This document shows positions 60 to 45,458 of a stretch of 64,000 nucleotides of DNA, piece by piece. Under the pieces are notes generated by a model that did no database searches, was not told the DNA's origin, and was given only the letters and a program-made list of their open reading frames with translations. The first letter of the stretch is position 1. Each line of letters begins with the position of its first letter. The DNA is taken from NCBI RefSeq assembly GCF_000266945.1, contig NC_018025.1, positions 5,646,001 to 5,710,000 on the forward strand. Direction: 5' to 3'. The translations under genes and the position numbers were made by a program. Source of the stretch: Desulfomonile tiedjei DSM 6799 (GTDB lineage Bacteria; Desulfobacterota; Desulfomonilia; Desulfomonilales; Desulfomonilaceae).

Positions 60-2846
60 CTACTTGTCGTAGCTCTTCTCGAGCATAGTCGCATGTGCTG
101 CAGCGAGCCTGGCTATGGGGACCCGAGGACCGGAGCAAGAGACATAGTCCAGCCCTGCATGATGGCAAAAACGGATTGACGCGGGATGGCCACCGTGCTC
201 GCCGCATATCCCGATTTTGAGATCGGGACGCACGCTGCGACCACCCTTTACGGCCAATTTCATGAGATTGCCGACCCCTTTGACATCCAGGGACTCGAAC
301 GGATTTTCCGGGAGAATATTTTGTTGCTGGTAGTACGGGAGGAATTTGTTTTCAGCATCTTCCCGACTGAATGAGAATGTCGCCTGTGTCAGATCGTTGG
401 TTCCGAAAGAGAAGAATTCTGATGCGCCGGCCAGTTCGTCTGCGGTTATACACGCTCGAACAACCTCCACCATGGATCCGAATTTAAAGTTGACCTCAAC
501 TCCGTGAGATTCTTCCACTTCTTTTTTGACTTGATCTATGATCTTCTGGACGTATTCGAGCTCGAGAACCGAACAAACCTGAGGAACCATTATCTCCGGA
601 TGAACCTCAATCCCCTCCTTTATGCAATCCGCTGCGGCCTCCAGTATGGCTCGTATCTGCATCTCGTAAATTTCCGGAAACGAGACGGCAAGCCGCACTC
701 CGCGATGGCCGAGCATGGGGTTGACTTCCTTGAGGATTCTTGCCCTCTGGAGCATCAATTCTTTCTTCGCCAGTGCGGCATCGATCAAAGTCAGATCGAG
801 ACTGGCAAAGAATGCGGGGAGACCCTGCCGTTGGGCCATATAGTTGCTGTGCAGCATAGGATCGATCAACTTGAGACTTTCGACGTTCTTCTCGGTGAGT
901 CGCGCAGTGTCATGCAAACGCCGAAGATCCTCTATTTGTACCTCCAGTTCGCCTTCCGAGGGGAGGAATTCATGAATCGGCGGATCGAGAAGTCTGACGG
1001 TAACCGGATACGGCGCCATTGCTTTGAGAATACCGGAAAAATCAGACCTTTGAATGGGAAGGAGCCTATTAAGAGCTTCCTTCCGCTGCTCCACCGTATC
1101 GGCAAGAATCATGTCAATGACAAGGGGCAGTCGATCCACGGCATTGAACATTCTTTCAGTCCGGCACAGCCCTATGCCTACCGCTCCGTAATTACGAGCC
1201 TTTTCCGCAGCTTCCGGAGTATCTGCATTGGCCATGACACCGAGCTTTGCAGATTCATCGGCCCAGTCCAGAAGAGTATGCAAATATGAGCTGAATTCCG
1301 GTTCGATGGTGGGGATTTCACCGAGATATACATTTCCTGTGCCACCGTCTATGGTAATGATGTCGCCTTCGTGAAGCACTCGGTCACCGACTATCGCAAG
1401 CCGATGCTCCGTATCCACGTGGATTCCTTCAGCTCCGGCGACACACGGTTTACCCATGCCTCGGGCGACGACAGCAGCATGTGAGGTCTTCCCGCCTCGA
1501 CTGGTCAATATACCTTGAGAGGCAAAGAACCCGTGAATGTCTTCCGGTTTGGTCTCTTCACGGACGAGGATGACTTTTTGGCCGGCTCTTCCAATTCTTT
1601 CGGCACTGTCTGCATCGAAAATACATTTTCCTGAAGCCGCTCCGGGAGAAGCGGGGAGCCCCTGAGACAGCGGTTCAGCTTTGAAATTAGGATCGAGTCC
1701 GGGATAGAGCAGTTGCTCCAGGTGCTCCGGGTTGATTCGCAGGAGACCTTCCGGCTTGGTGAGCAATCCCTCGTTGACCATTTCAACAGAGGTCCTCACC
1801 ATTGCTGTCGCGTTCATCTTGCCGTTGCGCGTCTGCAAGCAATAGAGAATACCTTTTTCAATGGTGAACTCGAAATCCTGGACTTCACGGTAATGCTTTT
1901 CCAGACGATCCCGGAGTTCCTCGAGTTGGTGGTAGAGATCCGGCATTTCCTGAGCCATGGCTTGGATCGGTCTGGGTGTCCGAATACCTGCCACCACATC
2001 TTCACCCTGGGCATTGACCAGGTATTCTCCGAACATTTTGTTCTCGCCGGTCGCCGGATCGCGTGTGAACCCTACTCCGGTTCCGCTATCATTACCCATG
2101 TTTCCGAAAACCATGGCAACAATGCTCACAGCGGTTCCGTTTGCCTGGTCAAGAGTGATGTTGAATTGTTTGCGGTAGTCCACCGCGCGCTTACCCGACC
2201 AGGAGTTGAATACCGCTTTTATTGCGATATTCAGTTGTTCCCAGACATCTTCGGGAAACGGCCTGAATTTCTGTTCTTCCACCACATTATGGAAGAGCTC
2301 CACTATTTCTTTGAGGTCTTCAATGGTAAGGTCCACATCAGAAATGGCTCCCGCCCGGACCTTGATGGCATCCAGTGTTTCGTCGAAATACTGGTCAGGA
2401 ATTCCCATAGCGACCTTGCCGAAAATCTGGATGAATCTGCGGTATGCGTCGTAAGCGAAACGCTCGTTGGATGTCTGTCTTATAAGTCCGTGAAGCGTCT
2501 GGGAATTCAGTCCCAAGTTAAGGACAGTGTCCATCATACCGGGCATGGACATGGCAGACCCTGAACGAACAGAGACAAGGAGCGGGTTGTCGGGGTCACC
2601 AAATTTTTTTCCGGTTGCACGTTCAATATCAGCCATATGGACCTTCACGGCATCCAAAAGACCTTCAGGAAGCTCGCCGTTCGGCGCTTCCAAATACTGG
2701 ACGCAGGCTTCAGTAGAGATAACAAAACCGGGCGGCACATTGAGGCCGATCTGCGTCATTTCGCATAAATTAGCCCCTTTTCCTCCCAGAAGTTTCTTAT
2801 TCTTGCCGTCACCTTCGAGAAATGAAAAAACATGTTTTACCATCAT
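60..2846 (-). CDS. ppdK: pyruvate, phosphate dikinase
   Basis: Reversibly converts pyruvate, ATP and phosphate to phosphoenolpyruvate, AMP and pyrophosphate in the cytoplasm; in anaerobes it serves gluconeogenesis or pyrophosphate-linked glycolysis. The 928 residues match a full-length PPDK. The N-terminal ATP-grasp region has LLGGKGANLCEMT. The central swivelling domain carries the phospho-histidine in GGKTSHAAVVARGMG (about residue 455); lysine stands where many homologues have methionine. The C-terminal PEP-binding barrel has FSFGTNDLTQ and the active-site cysteine in ICGEHGG. The start is the first of two adjacent ATGs, with GGAG six bases upstream. It is monocistronic, with long non-coding DNA on its 5' side. 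Confidence 0.97.
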   Translation of the reverse strand: MMVKHVFSFLEGDGKNKKLLGGKGANLCEMTQIGLNVPPGFVISTEACVQYLEAPNGELPEGLLDAVKVHMADIERATGKKFGDPDNPLLVSVRSGSAMSMPGMMDTVLNLGLNSQTLHGLIRQTSNERFAYDAYRRFIQIFGKVAMGIPDQYFDETLDAIKVRAGAISDVDLTIEDLKEIVELFHNVVEEQKFRPFPEDVWEQLNIAIKAVFNSWSGKRAVDYRKQFNITLDQANGTAVSIVAMVFGNMGNDSGTGVGFTRDPATGENKMFGEYLVNAQGEDVVAGIRTPRPIQAMAQEMPDLYHQLEELRDRLEKHYREVQDFEFTIEKGILYCLQTRNGKMNATAMVRTSVEMVNEGLLTKPEGLLRINPEHLEQLLYPGLDPNFKAEPLSQGLPASPGAASGKCIFDADSAERIGRAGQKVILVREETKPEDIHGFFASQGILTSRGGKTSHAAVVARGMGKPCVAGAEGIHVDTEHRLAIVGDRVLHEGDIITIDGGTGNVYLGEIPTIEPEFSSYLHTLLDWADESAKLGVMANADTPEAAEKARNYGAVGIGLCRTERMFNAVDRLPLVIDMILADTVEQRKEALNRLLPIQRSDFSGILKAMAPYPVTVRLLDPPIHEFLPSEGELEVQIEDLRRLHDTARLTEKNVESLKLIDPMLHSNYMAQRQGLPAFFASLDLTLIDAALAKKELMLQRARILKEVNPMLGHRGVRLAVSFPEIYEMQIRAILEAAADCIKEGIEVHPEIMVPQVCSVLELEYVQKIIDQVKKEVEESHGVEVNFKFGSMVEVVRACITADELAGASEFFSFGTNDLTQATFSFSREDAENKFLPYYQQQNILPENPFESLDVKGVGNLMKLAVKGGRSVRPDLKIGICGEHGGHPASIRFCHHAGLDYVSCSGPRVPIARLAAAHATMLEKSYDK

Positions 2847-3609
2847 GCCGGTCTCCTCAAATAAAAGTCATTAACAGTCCCAAACTGAAAGCAGCCTTTC
2901 CTTGTGGCGGACAAGAAAACCCTCTCATGGAATACCCCCGCTTTTCATGCGTAAGGGGGTGAAGCAGGACAAGGTCAATTTCGGCTGCAATTCAGGGCTG
3001 ATATGCACCAGAAAGGCCGTCAACCGCTTTTTGGGCGTAATTATACATTTTACAGAAAGAGTTCTTATAACGCAATATTCAGCCCAAGGAATTCCGGTGT
3101 CCGTCCAGGTTTCGCAATTTGAGCTTTGCCGGTCCATTCTATCGATATCATTGATCATATTGAAGATGTGCCGGCGCGGAGGCCGGCACCCACCAATACT
3201 CCTATCCTCAATCGGACATCAATTTTGGCAATTGCTAATACTGATTCGCTTTTCTTTTTATAATCTGGCAGGCTGGAGGTATTCTTCGCTCCGGACGACG
3301 CAAAGCCGTCTGATCGCTCCGCTTAGAACACCTCAGCCTGCGCCATCTTATGTGCATAATTGCGAAATGGTATAACATGTCATTTGCCATCATGCCCCGA
3401 CACCCATGACCGGTCGAACCGGCTTAACAAAGCGGATGATATGCTTCGTGTCAGCTTGACGTGGTTGAACGCTACCGATAATTTAACGGCTCACGTTTTT
3501 TCTCTCCGGACATGATTCAAGTGCCGAAAGCATGAAGAGAGAATTTGTTCCGTCATGTGTGAAGCTGTTTTTGCAGCACTGCATAATTCAAATGTGGATT
3601 GGATCGCCC
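2847..3609. repeat. non-coding stretch holding two dispersed repeats
   Basis: About 760 bases without a convincing gene. Bases 3123-3235 closely resemble 56035-56150: both have the ATATTGAAGATGTGCCGGC core, then CACCCACCAAT and a shared tail ending in AATTTTGGCAA. Bases 3235-3376 are a second repeat type, beginning CTAATACTGATTCGC and ending GCGAAATGGTATAAC, which recurs near 10171, 16405 (inverted) and 33485. Reading frames here cross the repeats and look spurious. Confidence 0.7.
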
Positions 3610-4059
3610 ATGAAAAAACGCGTCGTGAACAGGGAAAGAGTCGATTTCTTGAAAATGGATTACGAGCGAGGATTCATACAGTTCTGCGGATATGAAGCAG
3701 TACACGCGGAATGGGGGAGATTTCAGGCACGTGTGCAAATACATGAACATCACAGACAGCAAGACGGATTCATCCACGCAGGCGTCATGGCTACCATGGC
3801 GGACCATACCGCCGGCTATTCGGCCTTTACCACTGTTCCAGCGAGCATGCAGATACTTACTATCGAGTTCAAGATAAACTTCTTGCGCCCGGCATTCGGT
3901 TCCATTCTCCTTTGCTCTGCACAGGTAATCAGGGAAGGAAAGCAGGTGATCGTGTCGGAATCGGAGGTGTACGATGTTCGGGAAGATGCGGAAGTCCTCG
4001 TAGCAAAAGCAATGGTCACGCTTATGGCAGTTCCGAAAGAGAAGCTAACCGCGAAGTGA
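3610..4059 (+). CDS. PaaI-like hotdog-fold thioesterase
   Basis: Probable acyl-CoA thioesterase of the PaaI/4HBT hotdog family, likely hydrolysing aromatic or medium-chain acyl-CoA in the cytoplasm. About 149 residues. The family signature is in the middle: GFIHAGVMATMADHTAGYSA, where the HAG/D pattern supplies the helix and acidic residue of the active site, followed by a long strand (TIEFKINFLRPA) and alternating strands to the C-terminus. I chose the ATG at 3610 because the 26 upstream codons are cysteine-rich and unlike the family; no start has a strong ribosome site. It stands alone upstream of tatA. The exact substrate cannot be read from the sequence. Confidence 0.85.
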   Translation: MKKRVVNRERVDFLKMDYERGFIQFCGYEAVHAEWGRFQARVQIHEHHRQQDGFIHAGVMATMADHTAGYSAFTTVPASMQILTIEFKINFLRPAFGSILLCSAQVIREGKQVIVSESEVYDVREDAEVLVAKAMVTLMAVPKEKLTAK

Positions 4060-4189
4060 AATCCCCGAGATAATCGTTATATTCCAAGACACGAAAATTA
4101 CAGGATGATTCGAATCCAGTCAGTTGACTCTTTCAGCCCGGAGTGGTACCTTAAAGACCGACTGTAAGAACTCTGAATGGAGACTACCC

Positions 4190-4405
4190 ATGTTAGGCCC
4201 GCAGGAATTAATCGTGATCCTCCTCATCGCCGTCCTGATTTTCGGAGGAAAAAAGATACCCGAAATTATGGAAGGAGTAGGAAAAGGAATAAGGACTTTC
4301 AAAAAGGCGATGGATGGTGAAGACCAAACCGTTCCAGCTCAGCAGGCGCCTCAAATCGAGACCCCACCGAAAAAAATTGAAGGTCCTGTGGAAAAAAAGG
4401 CCTGA
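4190..4405 (+). CDS. tatA: Sec-independent protein translocase TatA/TatE
   Basis: Pore-forming subunit of the twin-arginine translocase. The 71-residue protein has the TatA plan: a short N-terminal transmembrane helix (LIVILLIAVLIFG), the glycine hinge, an amphipathic helix (KKIPEIMEGVGKGIRTFKKA) and a charged, proline-rich tail. The ATG at 4190 has GGAGA six bases upstream and puts the helix at the N-terminus as in the family, so the longer frame from 4124 is rejected. No tatB or tatC is adjacent. A substrate candidate in the window is the TRAP binding protein at 50817, whose signal begins SRRKF. Confidence 0.92.
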   Translation: MLGPQELIVILLIAVLIFGGKKIPEIMEGVGKGIRTFKKAMDGEDQTVPAQQAPQIETPPKKIEGPVEKKA

Positions 4406-4584
4406 TTCGCATACGGTTGTAAGCTACCGTTAGGCGATTCCACTCTTACATATTACTAGCCCGATCTTCCCGATTACGTGAAGAAGCCCTTTTTCACGCT
4501 CTTGACATGCCGCGCCCCAGTATCCATATTGGGGCGACGGATTCGCTTTCAGCAGCACAGACTCGATCACCTAAAGGATGCAAT

Positions 4585-7035
4585 GTGAAACCCTCTTCGC
4601 GGGACAAACTCGATCTCGCTAATAAGAATTTTCTGGATATAATCGTTGACCGACGCAGATTGTTGGTCACCCTTATTACTGTAGCCACAATCATACTTGT
4701 GTGGTTCGTGCCCCAAATACAGACCGACCCCACCCTAGAGTCAGGGGTGGATAAGTCCACACCGGCGTATTTGGATCACCGTGAATTTACCCGAATCTTC
4801 GGGAATGAAGAGTTTATTCTGATGGCCTTGAAGAGTCCCGGAGGGGCCGGGGATCCCGAAACTCTCAAGGCTCTCGACAGAATCACCACCACACTTCAAT
4901 CCTTGGACAAGATCCAGGAAGTCGTCTCCCTTTCAACCATCAAGCTTTTCCAAAAGAAGGGTGAGCTTTTCGGGAATTACCCGATTTTACGAAAGAACGG
5001 CGACAATCTCGCCTTGCCTGCGGAACCGGAACTTGAACAGATAAAGAAAGCTCTCCCGGTGACAGATCTTCTCATTTCCCCGGACCGGAAGACTATCGGC
5101 ATCCTCCTCAGAATGCAGGACAAATGGAAATTCGATGTAGATGCGGCAAAAGTACTGCGCCGAGAGCTGAATGAGATCATCAAGAAAGAAGCCCCCGCGA
5201 ATACGCAGTTCAGGATGGTAGGGCCTCCCTTCATCAGGCAGGCAATAGTCCGGTACAATATTCAAACCGGCATTATCTTCGGCGTGCTCTGTTTACTTAT
5301 CGGCACAGTCGTATCGGCCTACGTTTTCAGAAGCATCCGAGTAACAGCTATCACCAATGCGATTCTTTCCCTCTGTGTGCTCTGGATACTTGGATTCATG
5401 TCCCTGTTGGGGATTCCTCTTAATTCTACCACTGTTCTTTCCTTCGGCTTCATCCCTATAGCGACGATTGAAATCGTCATTCATATGGTCGTCCGGTATC
5501 ACTTTTTTCACCAATGTACAAATGAGAAAGAGGGAGCAATCAAGCAGGCGGTTCGTTGGCTTGCACGCCCTTGCTTCGTGTGCTGCGCCACTACTTCGAT
5601 CGGGTTCGGAACACTGATGGTCAGTTCCATTCCCATGGTGAGACAACTCGGGTTCATCATGTCTGTGGGAATCATGATTGCGTACGGTCTGGCCATTATC
5701 CTGACACCTGCGTTTTTCATGCGTTTGAAGCAACTGGATGCTTCCGAGCAAAATACCGTAATTAGAGGCTGGCTTGACAATTCTCTCGATAAACTCGAGG
5801 GGTCTATCTTCAAGCATTCTCGTTTGTATGTGATGTTCGGGCTTCTTTCGGCAGCGATTTTGCTTTGTGGTGCGCCTCTGATACGCAGTGACACGCAAAT
5901 TCTGCGGATGCTCAGCTCAAATACTCCTGAGGTCCAGGATCTGCATTTTGTGGAAAGCAATCTGACTGCCGTGAATTCTGTCGAGCTTATGCTGTTGGGA
6001 CAACCCGGCGAGTTCAAGAGTGCAGCCGCGTGGTCGAAAATAGCCGAGCTGGAGAACAAACTGAAGAGTATTCCCGAAGTGGCGGGAGTTGATTCGTTGC
6101 TCCCTCTCCTGGATTATCTCAATACCCTGCTCAGCGATTCCGAGACGAGAGAAGAGCTCCTCGCGAACCATTCAAAAGTTCCGCAATTCCTAGCGCTCGT
6201 GAACATGGGAACTGAAGGAAAACGTGTGAGCAGGCGCTTTGTCAATGATGCTTACGACGTCGTCCATATATCGGTACGGATAGTGAATTCGCCGGATCAC
6301 CCCATTGGAGAAGTCATCGACAAAATTCAGGCAGCCGCTGATTCGGTGATGCAAGATAAAATCAAAGCGGTAGTGACCGGGGACCTGGTGGTAGTAGCGA
6401 AGCAGACTTCGGAACTGATAAGGGACCAGATCAGATCGATGTTTTTGGCGGGATTGCTCATCACGATTGTCATGATGATCCAGATGGGCTCGGTCGTCCT
6501 TGGTCTGGTGAGCCTTATACCGAATATTCCACCGGTTGCTGCAGTATTCGGTATCATGGGATGGTTCGGAATCGCACTGGACGCGGTAACCATCTTTGCA
6601 GCCACCGTAGCCGTCGGCCTTGCCGTGGACAATACTATACATTTCCTCACACAGTTGAAACGGGAAATTATCCTGGATCCCGATCGAAGCGTGGAAGAAT
6701 CGGTAAGAAGCGCATACCGGTTTACCTCGAAACAGATTTCCTCCTGGTCCACGATCACCCTGCTCGGTTTTCTCGCGCTTATCATCTCGCCATTCCGGCC
6801 GGTAGTATTTTTCGGCATCCTGGGATGTGCATCTCTGTGCCTCGGGCTGTACGGCGACCTTATCTTTGTTCAGTCCTTAATCCTGTCCTCAAAGTGGTTG
6901 AAATCTGCTGTTCGCAAAGTCGCGGAAGCCGAGAATGGTAAGATAACGAGCAGCGTGGTAGAAATTGTGCAGGTTGGATCGTCGATCGAAGCTTCGTGCC
7001 GAGACAGCTCCGAAACGAGACGAAAAATCGGTTAA
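4585..7035 (+). CDS. RND/MMPL-family exporter
   Basis: Predicted inner-membrane exporter of the RND superfamily, MMPL type, about 816 residues. Two similar halves each have one membrane helix, a large periplasmic loop, and a five-helix bundle. Helix 1 is near residues 30-50 (LLVTLITVATIILVWF) and the second bundle contains VAVGLAVDNTIHFLTQLKRE, the conserved acidic helix of this family. Such proteins export lipids, hopanoids or hydrophobic compounds using the proton gradient; the substrate is unknown here. I chose the GTG at 4585 because AAAGGA lies six bases upstream, which the ATG at 4507 lacks. No adaptor or outer-membrane partner is adjacent. Confidence 0.88.
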   Translation: MKPSSRDKLDLANKNFLDIIVDRRRLLVTLITVATIILVWFVPQIQTDPTLESGVDKSTPAYLDHREFTRIFGNEEFILMALKSPGGAGDPETLKALDRITTTLQSLDKIQEVVSLSTIKLFQKKGELFGNYPILRKNGDNLALPAEPELEQIKKALPVTDLLISPDRKTIGILLRMQDKWKFDVDAAKVLRRELNEIIKKEAPANTQFRMVGPPFIRQAIVRYNIQTGIIFGVLCLLIGTVVSAYVFRSIRVTAITNAILSLCVLWILGFMSLLGIPLNSTTVLSFGFIPIATIEIVIHMVVRYHFFHQCTNEKEGAIKQAVRWLARPCFVCCATTSIGFGTLMVSSIPMVRQLGFIMSVGIMIAYGLAIILTPAFFMRLKQLDASEQNTVIRGWLDNSLDKLEGSIFKHSRLYVMFGLLSAAILLCGAPLIRSDTQILRMLSSNTPEVQDLHFVESNLTAVNSVELMLLGQPGEFKSAAAWSKIAELENKLKSIPEVAGVDSLLPLLDYLNTLLSDSETREELLANHSKVPQFLALVNMGTEGKRVSRRFVNDAYDVVHISVRIVNSPDHPIGEVIDKIQAAADSVMQDKIKAVVTGDLVVVAKQTSELIRDQIRSMFLAGLLITIVMMIQMGSVVLGLVSLIPNIPPVAAVFGIMGWFGIALDAVTIFAATVAVGLAVDNTIHFLTQLKREIILDPDRSVEESVRSAYRFTSKQISSWSTITLLGFLALIISPFRPVVFFGILGCASLCLGLYGDLIFVQSLILSSKWLKSAVRKVAEAENGKITSSVVEIVQVGSSIEASCRDSSETRRKIG

Positions 7036-34740: not shown

Positions 34741-34802
34741 CTGACATAAGTATGATTAATGATACGGATGACAGATCACGCAAAACTCTTCCGCTATATC
34801 CA

Positions 34803-35305
34803 TTCACTTACCCGTGGAAGAGCTTTCTACAGCCCCATAGGGGCTGCCCAAGAGTAGCCGTGGGTGCAAAACCCACGGAAGCGATATGGAAGTCCCTTGT
34901 CTTCAAGACCCTGAAGGGGTCTGCCAACGCCATTTGAGCGTTATTGTCTTGTTGGTCGACCCCTTTCAGGGTCGTTGAACTATGCTTATGGGCCGGCCGC
35001 TCCACGGGTTGACGAAACTGTCTCAAAATTCTCGAATACACAAAAATCGTGCCACGATTCATCCTCCTTGTAGGGGGCAGATCTCGTGCCTGCCCTCCTG
35101 CAATGACCGGCACGGAGGTCGGTCACTACCGGGCACCCACGAGGGGCGCCCCTACAATCAGGGCCGTGAAGATCATGAGAACTTCGTGCCACGATCTGGG
35201 ATAAATTTTGATTCCTGAGACACTTTCTGACACCTGTGGCTATTGCTGGGTCGCCCTTCCAGGGCTCAGAATTCCTAGTGCCCGCCTACAACTGAATGGT
35301 TACCT
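34803..35305 (+). repeat. long dispersed direct repeat, copy 1
   Basis: About 500 bases matching 39349-39846 at roughly 80-90 percent by eye. Shared landmarks, in order: TTTCTACAGCCCCATAGG, GTAGCCGTGGGTGCAAA, AAGACCCTGAAGGGGTC, CCACGGGTTGACGA, CTGTCTCAAAATTCTCGAAT, ATCGTGCCACGATTC, CTCGTGCCTGCCCTCC, GGTCACTACCGGGCACCCAC and CGCCCTTCCAGGGC. It has several internal short inverted repeats and no coding potential I trust. Confidence 0.8.
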
Positions 35306-39348: not shown

Positions 39349-39846
39349 GTAACCATTCAGTTACACGGGGTAGAGATTTCTACAGCCCCATAGGGGGCTA
39401 CCCAACAGTAGCCGTGGGTGCAAACCCACGGAAGCGATACGGGAAGTCTTTTGTTTTCAAGACCCTGAAGGGGTCGACCAACGACATTTGAAAATTATTG
39501 CCTATCGGTGGACCCTTTCAGGATCATTCAATTATGCATAGGGGCGTGCGGCTGTCCACGGGTTGACGAGACTGTCTCAAAATTCTCGAATCCACAGAAC
39601 ATCGTGCCACGATTCGCCATCGTGGTAGGGGCAGGTCTCGTGCCTGCCCTCCCGCAATGACCGGCACGGAGGCCGGTCACTACCGGGCACCCACGGGGGG
39701 CGCTCCTACAGTCAGTCTGGAGAGATGATGAGAAATTCGTGGCACGATCCGGGATAAATTTTGACTTTTGAGACAGTTTCTGACACCCGTGGCTACTATT
39801 GGGGCCGCCCTTCCAGGGCGTGCCCGGCTATGACTAAATGGTTACG
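39349..39846 (+). repeat. long dispersed direct repeat, copy 2
   Basis: About 500 bases homologous to 34803-35305 in the same orientation. It is itself bracketed by a shorter direct repeat, ATTCAGTTACACGGGGTAGA near 39354 and ATTCAGTTACGCGGGGTAGA near 39858. The two long copies enclose the metF/metV/tusA/activator block. Confidence 0.8.
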
Positions 39847-40094: not shown

Positions 40095-40302
40095 TCTTGA
40101 AGACATGATACTGACGGAACACGGTGCAATTCCGTGGCGGACCCGCCGCTGTAATCGGTGACGAAGCTCGCATAGCCACTGTTCGGTTCCAACTGAATGG
40201 GAAGGGCGAGCGGAGGAAGACCCGAAAGCCAGAAGACGAGTGTCAGGTCTTGGGAAAGCTGATGGTAAAAGCAACCCCTACCTTTGAGGTAGGGGTTTTT
40301 TA
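40095..40302 (+). ncRNA. cobalamin riboswitch with intrinsic terminator
   Basis: The aptamer core is clear: GGTGCAATTCCGTGGCGG, CCGCCGCTGTAATCGGTGAC, GCCACTG, GGGAAGG-CGAGC and GGAAGACCCGAAAGCCAGAA, ending in a P1 stem in which AAGAC and CTGAC pair with GTCAG and GTCTT. The expression platform is a terminator at 40273-40302: AACCCCTACC and its complement GGTAGGGGTT around a five-base loop, then a T-run. The ECF S-component gene begins 24 bases later. Cobalamin binding would favour termination, shutting off the transport genes. Confidence 0.93.
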
Positions 40303-40326
40303 TTGAGCAATCACAGGGAGGACGCA

Positions 40327-40893
40327 ATGAACACAGCAAAAGCACTCACACAGGATGGTCGTTCGCTAACGTTTACGCGGGTAGATACTGAATCTCTCGT
40401 TGGCGCGGTGCTGTTCGGTCTCGTCTTTGTGCTCGTGCAACAAGTCGCACATCGCATCGATGCTGTCATCAACCCGGCATGCGTCATCGTTGGTGGAGTG
40501 ACTTGGGCAACCATGACAGCGCTTGTCGCGCTCCTGTATCGCCAACCTGCAGGATTTATCACTGGCGAAGTCGCTGCTCTCGTGGCTCTCGCGACGGGAT
40601 TGTCACCATTGGCGCTTTTCTTCATCCCCGCAAATGGCCTGGGCTCACTGGTTTTTTCGCTGGCTGTTCGTAATTGCACCGACATGACGTGGTCAAGGAT
40701 TCTCCTGGCCCAAGTATCCGCAAATGTGGTGGGAAACCTTTGTGTCGCTGTCGGTCTCAGGACGATTTTGAATCTGCCTTACCCTGTCATTGGAATTGCT
40801 GCGGCTATAACCTGCGTTGCCGGCATAATCGGAGGGACGATCCTCACAAAATTGATCTATGGAAACCTTGTACGATCCGGACTGACAAAATAG
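40327..40893 (+). CDS. ECF transporter S-component (substrate-binding membrane subunit)
   Basis: A 188-residue membrane protein with about six hydrophobic segments, including SLVGAVLFGLVFVLVQQVAH, CVIVGGVTWATMTALVALLY, EVAALVALATGLSPLALFF and IGIAAAITCVAGIIGGTILT. Size and layout fit an ECF S-component. The ATG at 40327 has GGGAGGA upstream and directly follows the cobalamin riboswitch, so the likely substrate is a corrinoid or a corrinoid precursor. A conserved signature that would settle the substrate is not obvious. ATPase and T-component genes lie about 1.7 kb downstream. Confidence 0.82.
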   Translation: MNTAKALTQDGRSLTFTRVDTESLVGAVLFGLVFVLVQQVAHRIDAVINPACVIVGGVTWATMTALVALLYRQPAGFITGEVAALVALATGLSPLALFFIPANGLGSLVFSLAVRNCTDMTWSRILLAQVSANVVGNLCVAVGLRTILNLPYPVIGIAAAITCVAGIIGGTILTKLIYGNLVRSGLTK

Positions 40894-40994
40894 TGTTCGC
40901 CTGTATTTGTAGAGAACATCGGGAAGACTGTCTGTAGCGTAGAAGATTCATCGACTTTTGCCCGGGTCCGTACCGCGGCAGGTTAGGATAATGT

Positions 40995-42368
40995 ATGAGT
41001 CAAGATTGGCGCGATTTCATCAGATTGTACGAGCAGAACAATCCTCGCGATGTTCTGCGTATTACGGAAGAGCTGAATGCCGTATGGGAACCGACTGCGA
41101 TCATAATGGAGTTAGAACGTATGCGGCGATATCCTCTGGTGATTTTCGAGAAGATTTCAGGGCGGGATTTTCCGGTGGTGGCAAATCTCCTGGCTGGCAG
41201 GGAACGGCTTGCACGTGCTCTGGGGGTAACTGCAGAAGAGATAGGGTCTTCTTTCGCAGATCGCATTCAACGGTCAATACCCGTCGAGATCGTCGAAGCG
41301 CCGGCTTTCCTGCAAAACCAATTTGTAGGTGCAGAGCTGGATTTGACCAAATTACCCATCCTCACGCATTTTCCTATCGATGCAGGTCCGTACATAACTG
41401 CAGGGCTAGTAGTAGCTCGAGACCCGTACACAGGGGCGGAAACCTGCGGTTACCATCGGATGCAGCTAAAAGGAAGAGATAAGCTTGCCGTCAGTCTCCA
41501 TTCCCGGCAGCGTCTATGGGAATATTTCCGGAGGGCAGAGGAGCAAGGGAGAAATCTGGAAGCAGCCGTTGTTCTCGGTGTACATCCAGCCATCTCATTG
41601 GGATCGATGGCGCTTGTTCCCTACGATGAAAGCAAGTACCCGAGAATAGGGGCGCTCCTGGGACAACCCATGCAGGTCGGCAGATGCAGCCACATAGACC
41701 TTACAGTTCCGGCATGGTCCGAGATAGTGATCGAAGGGGAAATTCTTGCAGGCGTAAGGGAACCGGAAGGACCCTTTGCGGAGTTCACGAACTATTCCTG
41801 TCACAGAAGCACCGAAAACGTGTTTGCGGCCAAATCGCTTTCTCACAGAAATGGAGCGCTCTACCAGTGCATTACACCGGGAATGTGTTCAGAGCACGTC
41901 ACTATCGTTGCGATTCAACGGGAAGGCGACGTGATGCAGGCACTCAAGCAGTCTCTACCGAATGTTTCTAAAGTGCATGCTCCGTTGTCTGCGTGCGGAC
42001 TCTTTCACTGCTATATATCCATGAAGAAGATAGCGGAAGGTCAACCCATGCAAGCGATAATGCGCGCGTTTTCGGTGGATCACAATCTGAAAATGGTCGT
42101 AGTCGTGGACGATGACGTGGACGTATTCGATGAAACGCAGGTCTTGTGGGCTATTGCCACTCGTGTGCAAGCAGATCGGGATGTCCATATCATTCCTCAA
42201 CACCTCGGAATGGGCTGCACTCTCGATCCATCCACCGACGAACTGAGCCGAACTGCAAGAATGGGAATTGACGCAACCAAGCCACTCAACGGCTTTGCGG
42301 ATAGCATTACCCTGGATACCGAAGCGCGAACCAAAGCACAAAGCATACTGGCCAAGCTACTTCCGTAG
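40995..42368 (+). CDS. UbiD-family (de)carboxylase
   Basis: Prenylated-FMN-dependent decarboxylase of the UbiD family, about 457 residues, which removes or adds carboxyl groups on aromatic or unsaturated acids. The active-site Arg/Glu region is REPEGPFAEFTNYSCHRSTE; other family segments are DWRDFIRLYE, KLPILTHFPIDAGPYI, GYHRMQLKGRDKL and HLGMGCTLDPS at the metal-binding C-terminal part. AGGAT lies eight bases before the ATG. No ubiX (prenyl-FMN synthase) is adjacent. It lies between the S- and A-components of an ECF transporter under a cobalamin riboswitch, about 100 bases after the S gene. Confidence 0.9.
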   Translation: MSQDWRDFIRLYEQNNPRDVLRITEELNAVWEPTAIIMELERMRRYPLVIFEKISGRDFPVVANLLAGRERLARALGVTAEEIGSSFADRIQRSIPVEIVEAPAFLQNQFVGAELDLTKLPILTHFPIDAGPYITAGLVVARDPYTGAETCGYHRMQLKGRDKLAVSLHSRQRLWEYFRRAEEQGRNLEAAVVLGVHPAISLGSMALVPYDESKYPRIGALLGQPMQVGRCSHIDLTVPAWSEIVIEGEILAGVREPEGPFAEFTNYSCHRSTENVFAAKSLSHRNGALYQCITPGMCSEHVTIVAIQREGDVMQALKQSLPNVSKVHAPLSACGLFHCYISMKKIAEGQPMQAIMRAFSVDHNLKMVVVVDDDVDVFDETQVLWAIATRVQADRDVHIIPQHLGMGCTLDPSTDELSRTARMGIDATKPLNGFADSITLDTEARTKAQSILAKLLP

Positions 42369-42379
42369 CTTGAAGGAAG

Positions 42380-42423
42380 GAAATCGGGGAGGAACTTCTT
42401 GTAAGAAGTTCCTCCCCGATTTC
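42380..42423 (+). terminator. perfect 21-bp hairpin after the UbiD gene
   Basis: A 21-base arm (42380-42400) and its exact complement (42403-42423) are separated by only two bases; the arm contains CGGGGAGGAACTTC. A short T/C tract follows. It begins 11 bases after the UbiD stop. It resembles the hairpin at 54191 in sequence. Confidence 0.7.
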
Positions 42424-42444
42424 CTCCTCAAGAACTTTTGATAC

Positions 42445-42489
42445 TCGCAGGAACCCGAATTTCCTGGAAGGAAATTCGGGTTCCTGCGA
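42445..42489. repeat. perfect 20-bp hairpin before the ECF ATPase gene
   Basis: TCGCAGGAACCCGAATTTCC (42445-42464) and its exact complement (42470-42489) enclose a five-base loop. It is not followed by a T-run, so it is more likely an RNA-processing or dispersed palindrome element than a terminator. Confidence 0.6.
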
Positions 42490-42560
42490 ATGACAAAAAA
42501 TCCTTAGAGAGAGTTTTGAGGGAAATTTTCCTTACAGAGAATACCCACGGCGCTTTCTTG

Positions 42561-44114
42561 ATGCAAATGGCAAGACTTATGACCTTGAACCTGCTTGAAG
42601 TCGACATTCGAACAGTCGCCTACCCTGATGCAGAACACCCTGCGTTGCAGGATATTCATTTGTGCATCAAGCAAGGAGAGTTCATCGTTCTCGCAGGCTC
42701 CAGTCTCGCGGGAAAGACCACTCTGTGCCGATGCATTGCGGGTGTCATCCCTCATTTTGAAAAAGCTGTTCTGGAAGGAGACGTGCTGTTCGAAGGCTCA
42801 AGTCTTACGGGAATGCGACTTGCTGAATTGGCCGGAAAAATCGCTCTCATAAGACAAGATCCTTCGGACCAGCTCTTTTGTACAACCATCGAGCAGGATG
42901 TGGCCTTTGGTCCGTGCAACCTCCTGGTTTCCCGAAACGAAGTCCGAATCCGAGTGCAGGAATCCTTGGAATATGTCGGATTGCAGGGCTATGAACAGAG
43001 GAGCCCTGAAACGCTTTCCGGCGGCGAAAGTCAGCGTGCTGTACTGGCGAGCTATCTCTCGCTCCATCCGACCGTCCTGATATTAGACGGAGCGGCGGAT
43101 CAGCTTGATTTTCAGGGCCGCCGAAGCATCTACATGCGACTGCTCCAGGAGTGCCGTTCAAGAGGACTCTCTGTAATCGTGGTGGACAACAAGATAGCCG
43201 AATTGGGTATCGAGGCGGATCGAGTTATAGTGCTGGAGCGCGGGAGGTTGGCTTCAATTACCACGAAACTGGAATCCCGGCCGAGTGGTACTATTAGACG
43301 CATCTTTCCTCTTTGTAGGGATGTCATCGATTCGACGCAAACGACTTCGCCTGAATTGCAGAGTGGAACTGCTTCATTCTTAAGAGGAAATGGCGATGAA
43401 GAATCTGCTGCCCCCATCATATCGGTTGAAAATCTGTGCTTCAGCTATGGAGCGTCCCAGTTTGGGCTGACAAACGTTTCACTGAGAATTTATGAAGGCG
43501 AATTCGTTGTCCTGGTAGGCGAAAACGGGTCCGGCAAGACAACTCTGGCCAAGCACTTGGTTGGACTCTTGCGTCAGCAGTCTGGCACGGTGTTCTTCAA
43601 GGATATTGACACGAAATGCCTGACCACCGCAGAATTGGCTCGCTATGTCGGTTATATGCCGCAAAATCCCTATCTTCAAGTCTGCACCGGCTCAGTGAGA
43701 GAAGAAGTCGGCCTCGCTCTCCAGGCTCAAAAGCTCGATCCAAACATCATTGAGGAAAGGGTTGCCCATTGGCTTGCAAAGCTGGATCTGAGCGAAGTAG
43801 CCAGTGTACACCCTTACAGACTTCCTGGAGGAATGATGCAAAAGGTAGCTTTTGCTTCCCGGCTGATACACGAACCTGAAGTCCTTGTTCTCGATGAACC
43901 CACGTCACATATGAGCTTCCCGGACGACTTCAAGACCATGGAGCTCCTGACTCAACTCAGGGAAGAAGGAAGAACTATTATCGTGATCACCCACGATCAT
44001 CAAATAGCCCTAAGCTTTGCTTCCAGATTTATATTTCTCGAAAGAGGTAAGATCCAAGCCGAATTGAGCCCCGAAGAGATATGTTTGACTTCTCATGGGA
44101 CAAGATTCGCATGA
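42561..44114 (+). CDS. ECF transporter ATPase, two fused ABC domains
   Basis: Energy-coupling subunit with EcfA1 and EcfA2 fused in one chain, about 517 residues. Domain 1 has Walker A SSLAGKTT, signature LSGGESQR, but Walker B LILDGAAD (Gly in place of the catalytic Glu) and VVDNK where the switch His should be. Domain 2 has Walker A GENGSGKTT, an altered signature LPGGMMQK, Walker B VLVLDEPT and the switch His in ITHDH. The intact site is therefore domain 2 Walker motifs with the domain 1 signature; the other is degenerate. Start is uncertain (ATG 42561, 42567 or 42579); upstream frame crosses the hairpins. Confidence 0.88.
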   Translation: MQMARLMTLNLLEVDIRTVAYPDAEHPALQDIHLCIKQGEFIVLAGSSLAGKTTLCRCIAGVIPHFEKAVLEGDVLFEGSSLTGMRLAELAGKIALIRQDPSDQLFCTTIEQDVAFGPCNLLVSRNEVRIRVQESLEYVGLQGYEQRSPETLSGGESQRAVLASYLSLHPTVLILDGAADQLDFQGRRSIYMRLLQECRSRGLSVIVVDNKIAELGIEADRVIVLERGRLASITTKLESRPSGTIRRIFPLCRDVIDSTQTTSPELQSGTASFLRGNGDEESAAPIISVENLCFSYGASQFGLTNVSLRIYEGEFVVLVGENGSGKTTLAKHLVGLLRQQSGTVFFKDIDTKCLTTAELARYVGYMPQNPYLQVCTGSVREEVGLALQAQKLDPNIIEERVAHWLAKLDLSEVASVHPYRLPGGMMQKVAFASRLIHEPEVLVLDEPTSHMSFPDDFKTMELLTQLREEGRTIIVITHDHQIALSFASRFIFLERGKIQAELSPEEICLTSHGTRFA

Positions 44115-44184
44115 AAGAGATAAAATATGAGAAATCCTTCTTGTAAAGAAGGCTCACTTAAGCTTTCGCAAGAACTTCCAGCAG

Positions 44185-44286
44185 TCGTCCGAATCCTCGC
44201 TTTTTCATCGAAAAACGAGGATTCGGACGAGTATTAGAAGTTTTTGGAAGGGTTTGGGGAACCTTTTTGAAAAAAGGTTTCCCAAA
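44185..44286. repeat. two consecutive long hairpins between ECF ATPase and EcfT
   Basis: First, TCGTCCGAATCCTCG (44185-44199) pairs with its exact complement at 44216-44230. Second, a 16-base arm at 44253-44268 containing GGGGAACCTTTTT pairs with 44271-44286 with one G-U, around a two-base loop. They could attenuate or punctuate expression between the two transporter genes. Confidence 0.6.
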
Positions 44287-44302
44287 TTTAGTGTCTTTGG
44301 CT

Positions 44303-45073
44303 ATGCAGCTTCTGGTAAGTTACAGTAGAGATTCGGCGATTAGTCGGTTAGACCCCAGAGTGAAGATTCTGTGGCTCATTGGCAACGCCATATTCACTGT
44401 CTGGGGTTTGAGCCCTGGTCTGGTCGCGTGGAACTTCTTTGTCGTACTGTTCACCATACGATTGGCAGGGATCTCCTTGAGGAATCTGTTGCCGTTCCTC
44501 AAAATCATGGCAGTAATAGGAATCCAGCTCATATTGTTACAGGGTTTGTTACGGACGCAAGGCAGCCCGGTTTTCCATCTCGGACCAGCGACATTCTACA
44601 GTGAAGGTCTCCTATTGGGGGCAATGGGAGTGCTCACGCTCACCAGTCTTTCGCTCCTGTTTCTGCAGTTCATTATGTGCACAACGCCTGAAGAGATGAC
44701 TCTTCTGATGATAAATTGCAGACTGCCCGCTTCGTCGGCCGTTCTGGTAGGGCTTGCATTTCGCTTCCTGCCGCTCCTTGAACGTGACCTCCGTGAAATT
44801 CACGAGAGTCAGGAATCCAGAGGAATCGCTCTAACCACAACCTGGCAAAAAGCAAAGGGAATCGTCACGGTAATCCTTCCACTCATTTTAAGAACACTCC
44901 GAAGAACGCATGAAGTGTCCCTAACGATGGAGTTGAAGGGTTTCCGATTGCATGATACCCGTACGTTTCTTGAGGATTTGTCCTTCAGGAGGACCGACCG
45001 GTTGGCTGCAGCGGCAATCGGAGCCTATTTTGCTGTCGTGACTGCTGTTCTTATTCTAATGAGCTCGCTTTAA
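44303..45073 (+). CDS. ECF transporter T-component (EcfT)
   Basis: Membrane scaffold of an ECF importer, about 256 residues, linking the S-component to the ATPases. Four to six hydrophobic segments (for example VAWNFFVVLFTIRLAGI, AVIGIQLILLQGLL, GVLTLTSLSLLFLQFIM) precede the coupling helices. The two coupling motifs (family: Ala-Arg-Gly) are here HESQESRGIAL and SLTMELKGFRL; the second has Leu-Lys-Gly in place of Ala-Arg-Gly. The start at 44303 is the first ATG, with a weak ribosome site. It completes the S, A, A, T set begun at 40327. Confidence 0.88.
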   Translation: MQLLVSYSRDSAISRLDPRVKILWLIGNAIFTVWGLSPGLVAWNFFVVLFTIRLAGISLRNLLPFLKIMAVIGIQLILLQGLLRTQGSPVFHLGPATFYSEGLLLGAMGVLTLTSLSLLFLQFIMCTTPEEMTLLMINCRLPASSAVLVGLAFRFLPLLERDLREIHESQESRGIALTTTWQKAKGIVTVILPLILRTLRRTHEVSLTMELKGFRLHDTRTFLEDLSFRRTDRLAAAAIGAYFAVVTAVLILMSSL

Positions 45074-45137: not shown

Positions 45138-45458
45138 GTGCAACAGGACAAATTATCCAAATGCACCACATTTGAGTGGGACCAAGGAAATTCAGACAAG
45201 AACTGGATCAAACATGGAGTGTCCCAAATGGAATGCGAGCAAGTTTTCTTAAATGTCCCGCTGGTCGTTGGGGACGATTCGAAGCACTCGCAGACGGAAG
45301 AACGGCACTATGCATTAGAGCAAACCGATGATGACCGGTATTTGTTCGTGGTGTTTACCATCCGCGGCGAAAGCATTCGTGTCATTTCAGCCCGTGACAT
45401 GAACCGAAAAGAGAGATTGATTTACGATGAAAAAACAGATACCGAAATTCGAGAATGA
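45138..45458 (+). CDS. brnT: BrnT-type toxin
   Basis: Type II toxin of the RelE-like BrnT fold, a ribosome-dependent RNase in the founder system. About 106 residues. Family features are FEWDQGNSDKNWIKHGVS at the N-terminus, QVFLNVPLVVGDDSKHS, then EERHYALEQTDDDRYLFVVF, FTIRGESIRVISARDMNRKE and a C-terminal RLIYDE. It starts at a GTG. Its 3' end overlaps the antitoxin gene by 32 bases. Confidence 0.88.
   Translation: MQQDKLSKCTTFEWDQGNSDKNWIKHGVSQMECEQVFLNVPLVVGDDSKHSQTEERHYALEQTDDDRYLFVVFTIRGESIRVISARDMNRKERLIYDEKTDTEIRE

Follow-up and report, generated by a model that had tools for sequence, protein, structure and literature searches.

The closest described systems to the gene cluster analyzed here are the riboswitch-controlled vitamin transporters of the energy-coupling factor (ECF) type, such as ThiT, YkoE, CbrT and others. 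Like the cluster, they combine an S component, with the S fold, with a double ATPase (A) and a T component, have the A and T genes beside that for S, and are headed by a vitamin riboswitch. The cluster resides in a stretch of 64,000 nucleotides (hereafter the window) from Desulfomonile tiedjei DSM 6799 (assembly GCF_000266945.1, contig NC_018025.1, positions 5,646,001 to 5,710,000 of the forward strand), and features a cobalamin riboswitch followed by genes for an S component, a prenyl-flavin mononucleotide (prenyl-FMN) decarboxylase of the UbiD family, a double ATPase and a T component. It is real, conserved and, within the literature searched, undescribed; it represents ECF transport under a riboswitch, to which a new metabolic role may be attached. 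Tentatively, at a likelihood just below even, we read the cluster as a unit that, under control of a cobalamin riboswitch, takes up a small (hetero)aromatic compound and decarboxylates it, so as to supply the cobamide pathway, the most likely destination being a lower-ligand base.

Which corrinoid enzymes work well, reductive dehalogenases included, depends on the lower ligand. In one survey this ligand could be predicted for 58% of the producers (PMC6461909). Where anaerobes without BluB or Bza genes obtain it is an open question, for which the cluster provides a concrete set of genes to test. An earlier reading of the window, made from the letters alone (the sequence-only reading), took the link of such a decarboxylase with lower-ligand processing to be undescribed. 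In the literature searched, supplements and most subscription papers lying outside, nothing was found among 5.39 million papers on a cobalamin riboswitch with an ECF transporter and UbiD, and nothing on an ECF transporter with UbiD. No UbiD appears among the matches listed for lower ligand, anaerobes and cobamide. A corrinoid-starvation study of D. restrictus names five riboswitch operons, and the available part of its main text has no UbiD, hydantoinase or decarboxylase (PMC4285132); the available part of the main text of a riboswitch survey has no decarboxylase or hydantoin (PMC3766115).

The operon of D. tiedjei

The chromosome of the window measures 6,500,104 bases and is accompanied by a second contig. 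Eight cobalamin riboswitches were found in this genome, that of the operon included. The operon is made up as follows (window coordinates):

40116 to 40237, plus strand: cobalamin riboswitch aptamer (RF00174, 78.5 bits against a gathering score of 31.5, E 1.2e-17)
40273 to 40297, plus strand: terminator-like hairpin, expression platform of the riboswitch (11-pair stem, loop of 3, T run)
40330 to 40893, plus strand: S component of the ECF transporter (the reading frame opens at 40303; the ATG at 40330, behind GGGAGG, is the probable start)
40995 to 42368, plus strand: UbiD-family (prenyl-FMN) decarboxylase (three UbiD Pfam domains, TIGR00148)
42561 to 44114, plus strand: double ECF ATPase (the reading frame opens at 42438; 42561 is the likely start)
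44303 to 45073, plus strand: T component, CbiQ family (the reading frame opens at 44267; 44303 is the likely start)

The aptamer and the terminator, and the order S, UbiD, double ATPase, T behind them, are as the sequence-only reading had placed them. The RF00174 alignment covers model positions 47-167 of 189 only. A scan of the region gives 8 sites like the hairpin against 6.5 expected, so that its weight lies in its place behind the aptamer. A cobalamin riboswitch with its expression platform precedes the operon, and its sequence predicts cobamide binding and repression.

Two ATP-binding cassette (ABC) domains and a CbiQ-type T protein adjoin S. In 20/20 loci the Walker-B glutamate is missing from the first half of the double ATPase and the LSGGQ signature is altered in the second, so that only one ATP site looks complete. 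A role in anti-phage defence was considered and rejected, as just the ATPase gave matches, to ABC- and AAA-like models, and S, UbiD and T none.

The gaps S-UbiD, UbiD-A and A-T measure 101, 192 and 188 bp. In nine relatives measured, 25 of the 27 gaps among the four genes are overlaps or shorter than 50 bp (gene starts were set by hand, those of A and T in the window by comparison with relatives). The window differs from these in that palindromes lie in two of its three intergenic gaps:

42378 to 42425, no strand assigned: perfect palindrome with 23-nt arms between UbiD and A, without T tail
42427 to 42507, no strand assigned: imperfect palindrome with 39-nt arms (82%) between UbiD and A
44169 to 44286, no strand assigned: two imperfect palindromes (83% and 94%) between A and T, the second terminator-like

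Co-transcription of all four genes is likely, and is graded no higher because of the gaps of 101-192 bp and the palindromes, one of which is terminator-like.

Conservation of the cluster

Homologues of S were searched with the window protein in 60 relatives, and then in 395 genomes of the phylum, Desulfobacterota. Two genomes were positive in either set (2/60 and 2/395, the genome of the window counted in both). Five loci came from a single scan of GTDB contigs; the three that lie in other organisms are from Bacillota (Candidatus Formimonas warabiya, Anaerosolibacter carboniphilus and Geosporobacter ferrireducens). When a profile built on six S proteins was run against 398 genomes of the Formimonas phylum, that of Formimonas included, strong homologues were found in 16. 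Strong S homologues are thus found in 21 genomes in all, from two phyla. Chance-level matches (16-20 bits) were dropped, two in the set of 395, five in the set of 398, and four in the order of genome G422 (G-numbers denote genomes, L-numbers fetched loci), 297 genomes of which gave two known homologues and these four weak fragments only. Two distant homologues (L106 and L107, 45 and 40 bits) were kept outside the 21 strong ones, and L033 and L034, taken by their lengths as the contigs of L029 and L011, were counted once. No plasmid-borne copies were found, tblastn giving no match at E 1e-3 in 72,556 plasmid records.

UbiD lies in the same-strand gene run with S in 16 of the 21 genomes, directly after S in 15 of them; the order is S, A, T, UbiD in L097. 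In G433 a UbiD of the same clade is found with A, T and HyuAB on a contig other than that of S. RF00174 lies ahead of the S operon in 20/21 genomes. A chance neighbourhood was rejected, because the same arrangement of genes, the riboswitch and this clade of UbiD are seen repeatedly, in two phyla. The order S, UbiD, A, T behind a riboswitch, to which the sequence-only reading pointed as a feature to look for in relatives, is the prevailing one; it does not hold throughout, four S genomes having no UbiD of this clade and one locus no riboswitch. Most flanking genes in the loci of relatives were assigned by eye only. An IS200-type transposase-like gene (L102, 12731-13225, by eye) lies between cobalamin riboswitch and operon; there is none at this place in L103 and L105.

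The UbiD clade

The window UbiD matches PF20695, PF01977 and PF20696 (N, middle and C domains), all above cut-off, and TIGR00148 (323.9 bits, cut-off 244.85). Residues R155, E258 and E263, invariant in 6/6 aligned cluster UbiDs, are presumably the catalytic Arg-Glu-Glu of the family. Nearest among solved structures are 6h6v (306.7 bits) and 6h6x (296.4), followed by phenolic acid decarboxylase (176.8). Both 6h6v and 6h6x, labelled in the table as 3-polyprenyl-4-hydroxybenzoate decarboxylase and related, we take to be HmfF of Pelotomaculum, a furandicarboxylate enzyme. The score with VdcC, a model for hydroxyarylic acid decarboxylases, is 274.9 bits, far under the cut-off of 650, and the UbiD models for menaquinone and polyprenylbenzoate likewise give scores far below their own cut-offs.

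In a tree of 27 UbiDs the 17 cluster proteins form one clade (support 100/100), with 61-72% identity to the window UbiD inside and 28-44% outside it. A UbiD profile was searched in the 398 genomes of the Formimonas phylum, where one of the positives (G420) is a seed of the profile, and in the 395 Desulfobacterota. In the former the clade is present in 12 genomes, at 735 bits or more, the next best score being 427, and all 12 fall among the 16 with S (Fisher p 6.5e-20, relatedness of the genomes uncorrected and seed G420 counted). In the latter it is present in two (927 and 896 bits), both with S and both seeds. Around the next-best Desulfobacterota UbiDs (566 and 556 bits), left out of the tree, 11.5 and 14 kb were fetched, and these contain no S, ECF genes or cobalamin riboswitch. 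UbiD belongs to the transporter unit, as the sequence-only reading supposed, 16 of the 21 loci having it and the clade being confined, in the 398 and 395 genomes, to those with S. Lack of UbiD at orthologous transporter loci, which that reading had named as grounds for refutation, thus does not apply to these 16. The clade looks dedicated to this unit, and its members are predicted from sequence to use prenyl-FMN and to decarboxylate. UbiD and transporter very probably act in one pathway.

More distant UbiDs have genes of nitrilase type (L171, L172) or of xanthine-dehydrogenase type (L173, L174) in their vicinity, surroundings in keeping with chemistry at ring nitrogens. Another UbiD outside the clade (400 bits; L130 of G788, 2455-5804) adjoins genes for MoaD-like and aldehyde:ferredoxin oxidoreductase proteins (by eye), and no cobalamin riboswitch was found in the 5.8 kb of this locus.

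The S component

Neither Pfam nor NCBIfam gives a match above cut-off for the window S, and one relative has a chance-level match. A search of PDB sequences gave weak matches only, all to TALE repeat proteins. Assignment to a known vitamin family by sequence was therefore rejected, and identity as an ECF S component rests on gene context and predicted fold. The AlphaFold model built from 23 sequences (pLDDT 87.3, pTM 0.83) supersedes a first one from 6 sequences (pLDDT 72.4). In the fold comparison S components come out on top, with ThiT in first place (Z 17.1, rmsd 2.3, 160 aligned), followed by FolT (15.7), RibU (15.0), 5edl (14.4; presumably YkoE) and BtuM (10.1). By this rank the S-component fold of the model is well supported. 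The same ranking leans to small ring compounds rather than corrinoids as substrate, and is in this respect suggestive only. The sequence-only reading had the transporter import a corrinoid or a precursor; a corrinoid is not indicated, the model being nearest to ThiT, FolT and RibU, with BtuM at a greater distance, and this too is no more than suggestive.

The distant homologues L106 and L107 adjoin A, T and genes for hydantoin racemase or amidohydrolase (L107 by eye), with no cobalamin riboswitch within the flank searched.

Partner genes

Genes similar to HyuA and HyuB, which resemble lactam or cyclic-imide hydrolases, are part of the UbiD operon in 12 of the 17 genomes with clade UbiD. The best matches of HyuA and HyuB of L030 and L031 are caprolactamase models, yet the scores stay under the model cut-offs. 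In the window's genome, the sole HyuA match (34% identical) lies elsewhere, beside a methylmalonyl-CoA mutase (by eye), and was left out of the unit. UbiX-like genes are found in the fetched flanks of 7/17 clade-UbiD genomes, and elsewhere in the genome of the window. In L097 the nearby UbiX is under a cobalamin riboswitch of its own.

CobT is present in all 21 S genomes, compared to 7 of 14 controls. In L099 it has its own cobalamin riboswitch and lies directly upstream of the cluster. Most S genomes (18/21) have one match; G422 has two that are separated by 1 Mb, G489 has two on separate contigs, and G577 one, plus a 54-bit fragment elsewhere. A tandem CobT pair of the ArsAB type was seen in none of the 21.

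In L094-L096 an aldehyde:ferredoxin oxidoreductase gene follows S in the place of UbiD (L096 by eye). The imported compound may therefore carry a carboxylate, which is either removed, by UbiD, or reduced, by the oxidoreductase.

Bza genes were searched in 6 of the 21 genomes. Six ThiC-like proteins score 514-642 against a BzaB cut-off of 700, BzaF and ThiC being not separable; a seventh, containing a stop, was left unscored against the BzaB model, and G420 gave no match. Two of the ThiC-like copies in the D. tiedjei genome, at 5,111,616 and 6,418,961, score equally and have neighbourhoods alike in gene content; the third has an in-frame TAG.

Proposed function of the cluster

At low cobamide the riboswitch would permit transcriptional read-through. 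S, powered by the double ATPase and T, would then import a small (hetero)aromatic compound, not a corrinoid. HyuAB, where present, would probably first open a lactam or cyclic imide, and UbiD, with prenyl-FMN from a UbiX encoded next to the cluster or at another place in the genome, would remove the carboxylate in the cytoplasm. The product would enter the cobamide pathway, most likely as, or on the way to, the lower-ligand base that CobT attaches. For the opening step we rely on how cobalamin riboswitches are known to behave; from gene content we infer the later ones, and with them substrate class, order of reactions and lower-ligand endpoint. That the imported compound is small and other than a corrinoid is likely. 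That the product of UbiD serves the lower ligand is somewhat short of an even prospect; this link, drawn already by the sequence-only reading, gains slightly from the riboswitched CobT of L099 and the presence of CobT in every S genome, and loses by the S genomes without this UbiD. A fuller version, in which an N-heteroaromatic precursor is imported, opened by HyuAB where needed, decarboxylated by the dedicated UbiD and used by CobT, all under cobalamin riboswitches, would be an undescribed supply of lower ligand independent of O2, and is doubtful. The carriers of such a route would be anaerobes, probably with organohalide respirers among them. Even with another endpoint the cluster ties prenyl-FMN chemistry to the cobalamin regulon, and marks a family of S components without a described substrate.

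Several observations weigh against this reading of the cluster. Genomes G425, G546, G608 and G701 hold S without a UbiD of this clade, two of the four having aldehyde:ferredoxin oxidoreductase beside S (L095 by Pfam, L096 by eye). The S of L100 (G425) has no riboswitch, and A and T are also missing in the 12 kb fetched. Five of the 17 cluster UbiDs, that of the window included, have no adjacent HyuAB (the contig of L011 is just 7.2 kb long), and no UbiX lies beside the window cluster. The presence of CobT in 21/21 genomes supports it weakly, because CobT is common, and CobT adjoins the cluster at one locus only. The genome of the window has three ThiC-like matches inseparable from BzaF; these could include BzaF, and hence a lower-ligand route of its own. 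As to S, Foldseek returned no match to the model at E 0.001 or better (best E 7.6e-3), and unrelated membrane proteins reach Z scores up to 9.8.

Riboswitch control also fits genes that replace B12-dependent steps. The imported compound could be turned into a metabolite that substitutes for the output of a cobamide-dependent enzyme, the genes being switched on at cobamide shortage. Isozymes of B12-dependent enzymes are known to be among the targets of cobalamin riboswitches (PMC3766115), HyuAB and UbiD resemble a short degradative sequence, and the distant S homologues are accompanied by hydantoin-type genes. This B12-sparing role is nevertheless unlikely: the neighbours with riboswitches of their own, CobT (L099), UbiX (L097) and a pair of alcohol dehydrogenase and TrpD-like genes (L094), are no obvious replacement enzymes, and no B12-independent isozyme was recognised in the flanks, where most genes were judged by eye only. 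That the transporter takes up corrinoids, with the incoming corrinoid or its nucleotide as the substrate of UbiD, or with UbiD simply riding along, is quite improbable. Riboswitch and ECF type would suit a B12 importer such as CbrT (PMC5997447), and the fold matches include BtuM, which is an S component for cobalamin, though its Z of 10.1 says little either way, given the scores reached by unrelated membrane proteins. S is structurally closer to the S components for small vitamins, and the coupling with UbiD is too tight for a passenger. UbiD substrates are (hetero)aromatic or acrylic acids, according to part of PMC8379154, and D. restrictus has BtuFCD and FepBCD-like importers, according to part of PMC4285132. 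CbrT itself yields little: the six-row S profile matched no CbrT chain in the PDB set at E 10, which proves little, the presence of CbrT in the set being assumed, and its absence among the fold matches listed for the S models excludes nothing.

The phenol version of the sequence-only reading, in which a hydroxybenzoate is taken up and its decarboxylation yields phenol or cresol for a phenolic lower ligand, is highly improbable. It could draw on the 274.9 bits scored with VdcC, were these not so far under the cut-off, and on two enzymes encoded close to the S of G433, an aldehyde oxidoreductase and an alcohol dehydrogenase, which could also act on such acids. The closest solved UbiDs are 6h6v and 6h6x rather than phenolic acid decarboxylase, and phenolic ligands require tandem CobT homologues, ArsAB, as stated in a portion of PMC6461909, none of which was seen in the 21 genomes. 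Equally slight is the prospect that an aromatic acid is scavenged for some other cofactor, such as a quinone, and that the riboswitch was gained by chance. UbiD enzymes do serve quinone pathways, and D. tiedjei has a requirement for a naphthoquinone; yet a riboswitch found ahead of 20 of 21 S operons in two phyla, and the low scores with the menaquinone and polyprenylbenzoate models, speak against it.

Other genes near the cluster and its riboswitch

Further genes lie behind cobalamin riboswitches. In the genome of the window (L018, 5645-7857, from region 1,160,000-1,175,000) one is followed by genes for a zinc alcohol dehydrogenase and a TrpD-like phosphoribosyltransferase, and a similar pair is found near the S of G433 (L094, 2899-5079). 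The legend to a figure lists trpD and a dehydrogenase among the cobalamin genes of a Chlorobium (PMC8620254). Another riboswitch of the D. tiedjei genome, 81% identical to that of the window over 198 columns, precedes the gene for the peptide-modifying radical SAM enzyme CbpB (731 bits; L016, 4774-6225).

In Anaerosolibacter an azaaromatic (yjdF) riboswitch with a small gene lies about 850 bp past T (L031, 15089-15619), possibly by chance, but it is a sensor of azaaromatic compounds. A reductive-dehalogenase-like gene is found near the cluster in L103 (15997-17547; TIGR02486 158.8 bits, just under the cut-off of 160.35). Genes for a cis-prenyltransferase (UppS-like) lie a few genes away from the cluster, or from its variant with aldehyde:ferredoxin oxidoreductase, in L092 (15629), L093 (15671), L095 (12714) and L128 (4292), those of L093 and L128 being assigned by eye. 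In the window, a BrnT-type toxin gene lies directly 3' of T (45138-45458), and an interspersed repeat of 513 columns, 82% identical, is present at 39350-39845 and 34797-35303.

Comparison with known systems

The cluster departs from the ECF vitamin transporters in the S component, without Pfam or NCBIfam match, in the decarboxylase gene inside the operon, and in the degenerate look of one ATPase site (20/20 loci). With 6h6v and 6h6x the window UbiD shares the three domains and, in the alignment, the positions of the presumed catalytic Arg and Glu residues, but it falls in a clade of its own, whose genes go together with those of an importer and with a cobalamin riboswitch. The product would feed the same CobT step as BluB, BzaABCDEF and alpha-ribazole salvage; none of these genes was recognised in the cluster, which would instead offer a route by importer and decarboxylase. 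HyuA and HyuB are akin to the hydantoinase/caprolactamase family, those of L030 and L031 matching caprolactamase models best, though below the cut-offs, and differ from it in setting, lying here next to UbiD under a cobalamin riboswitch.

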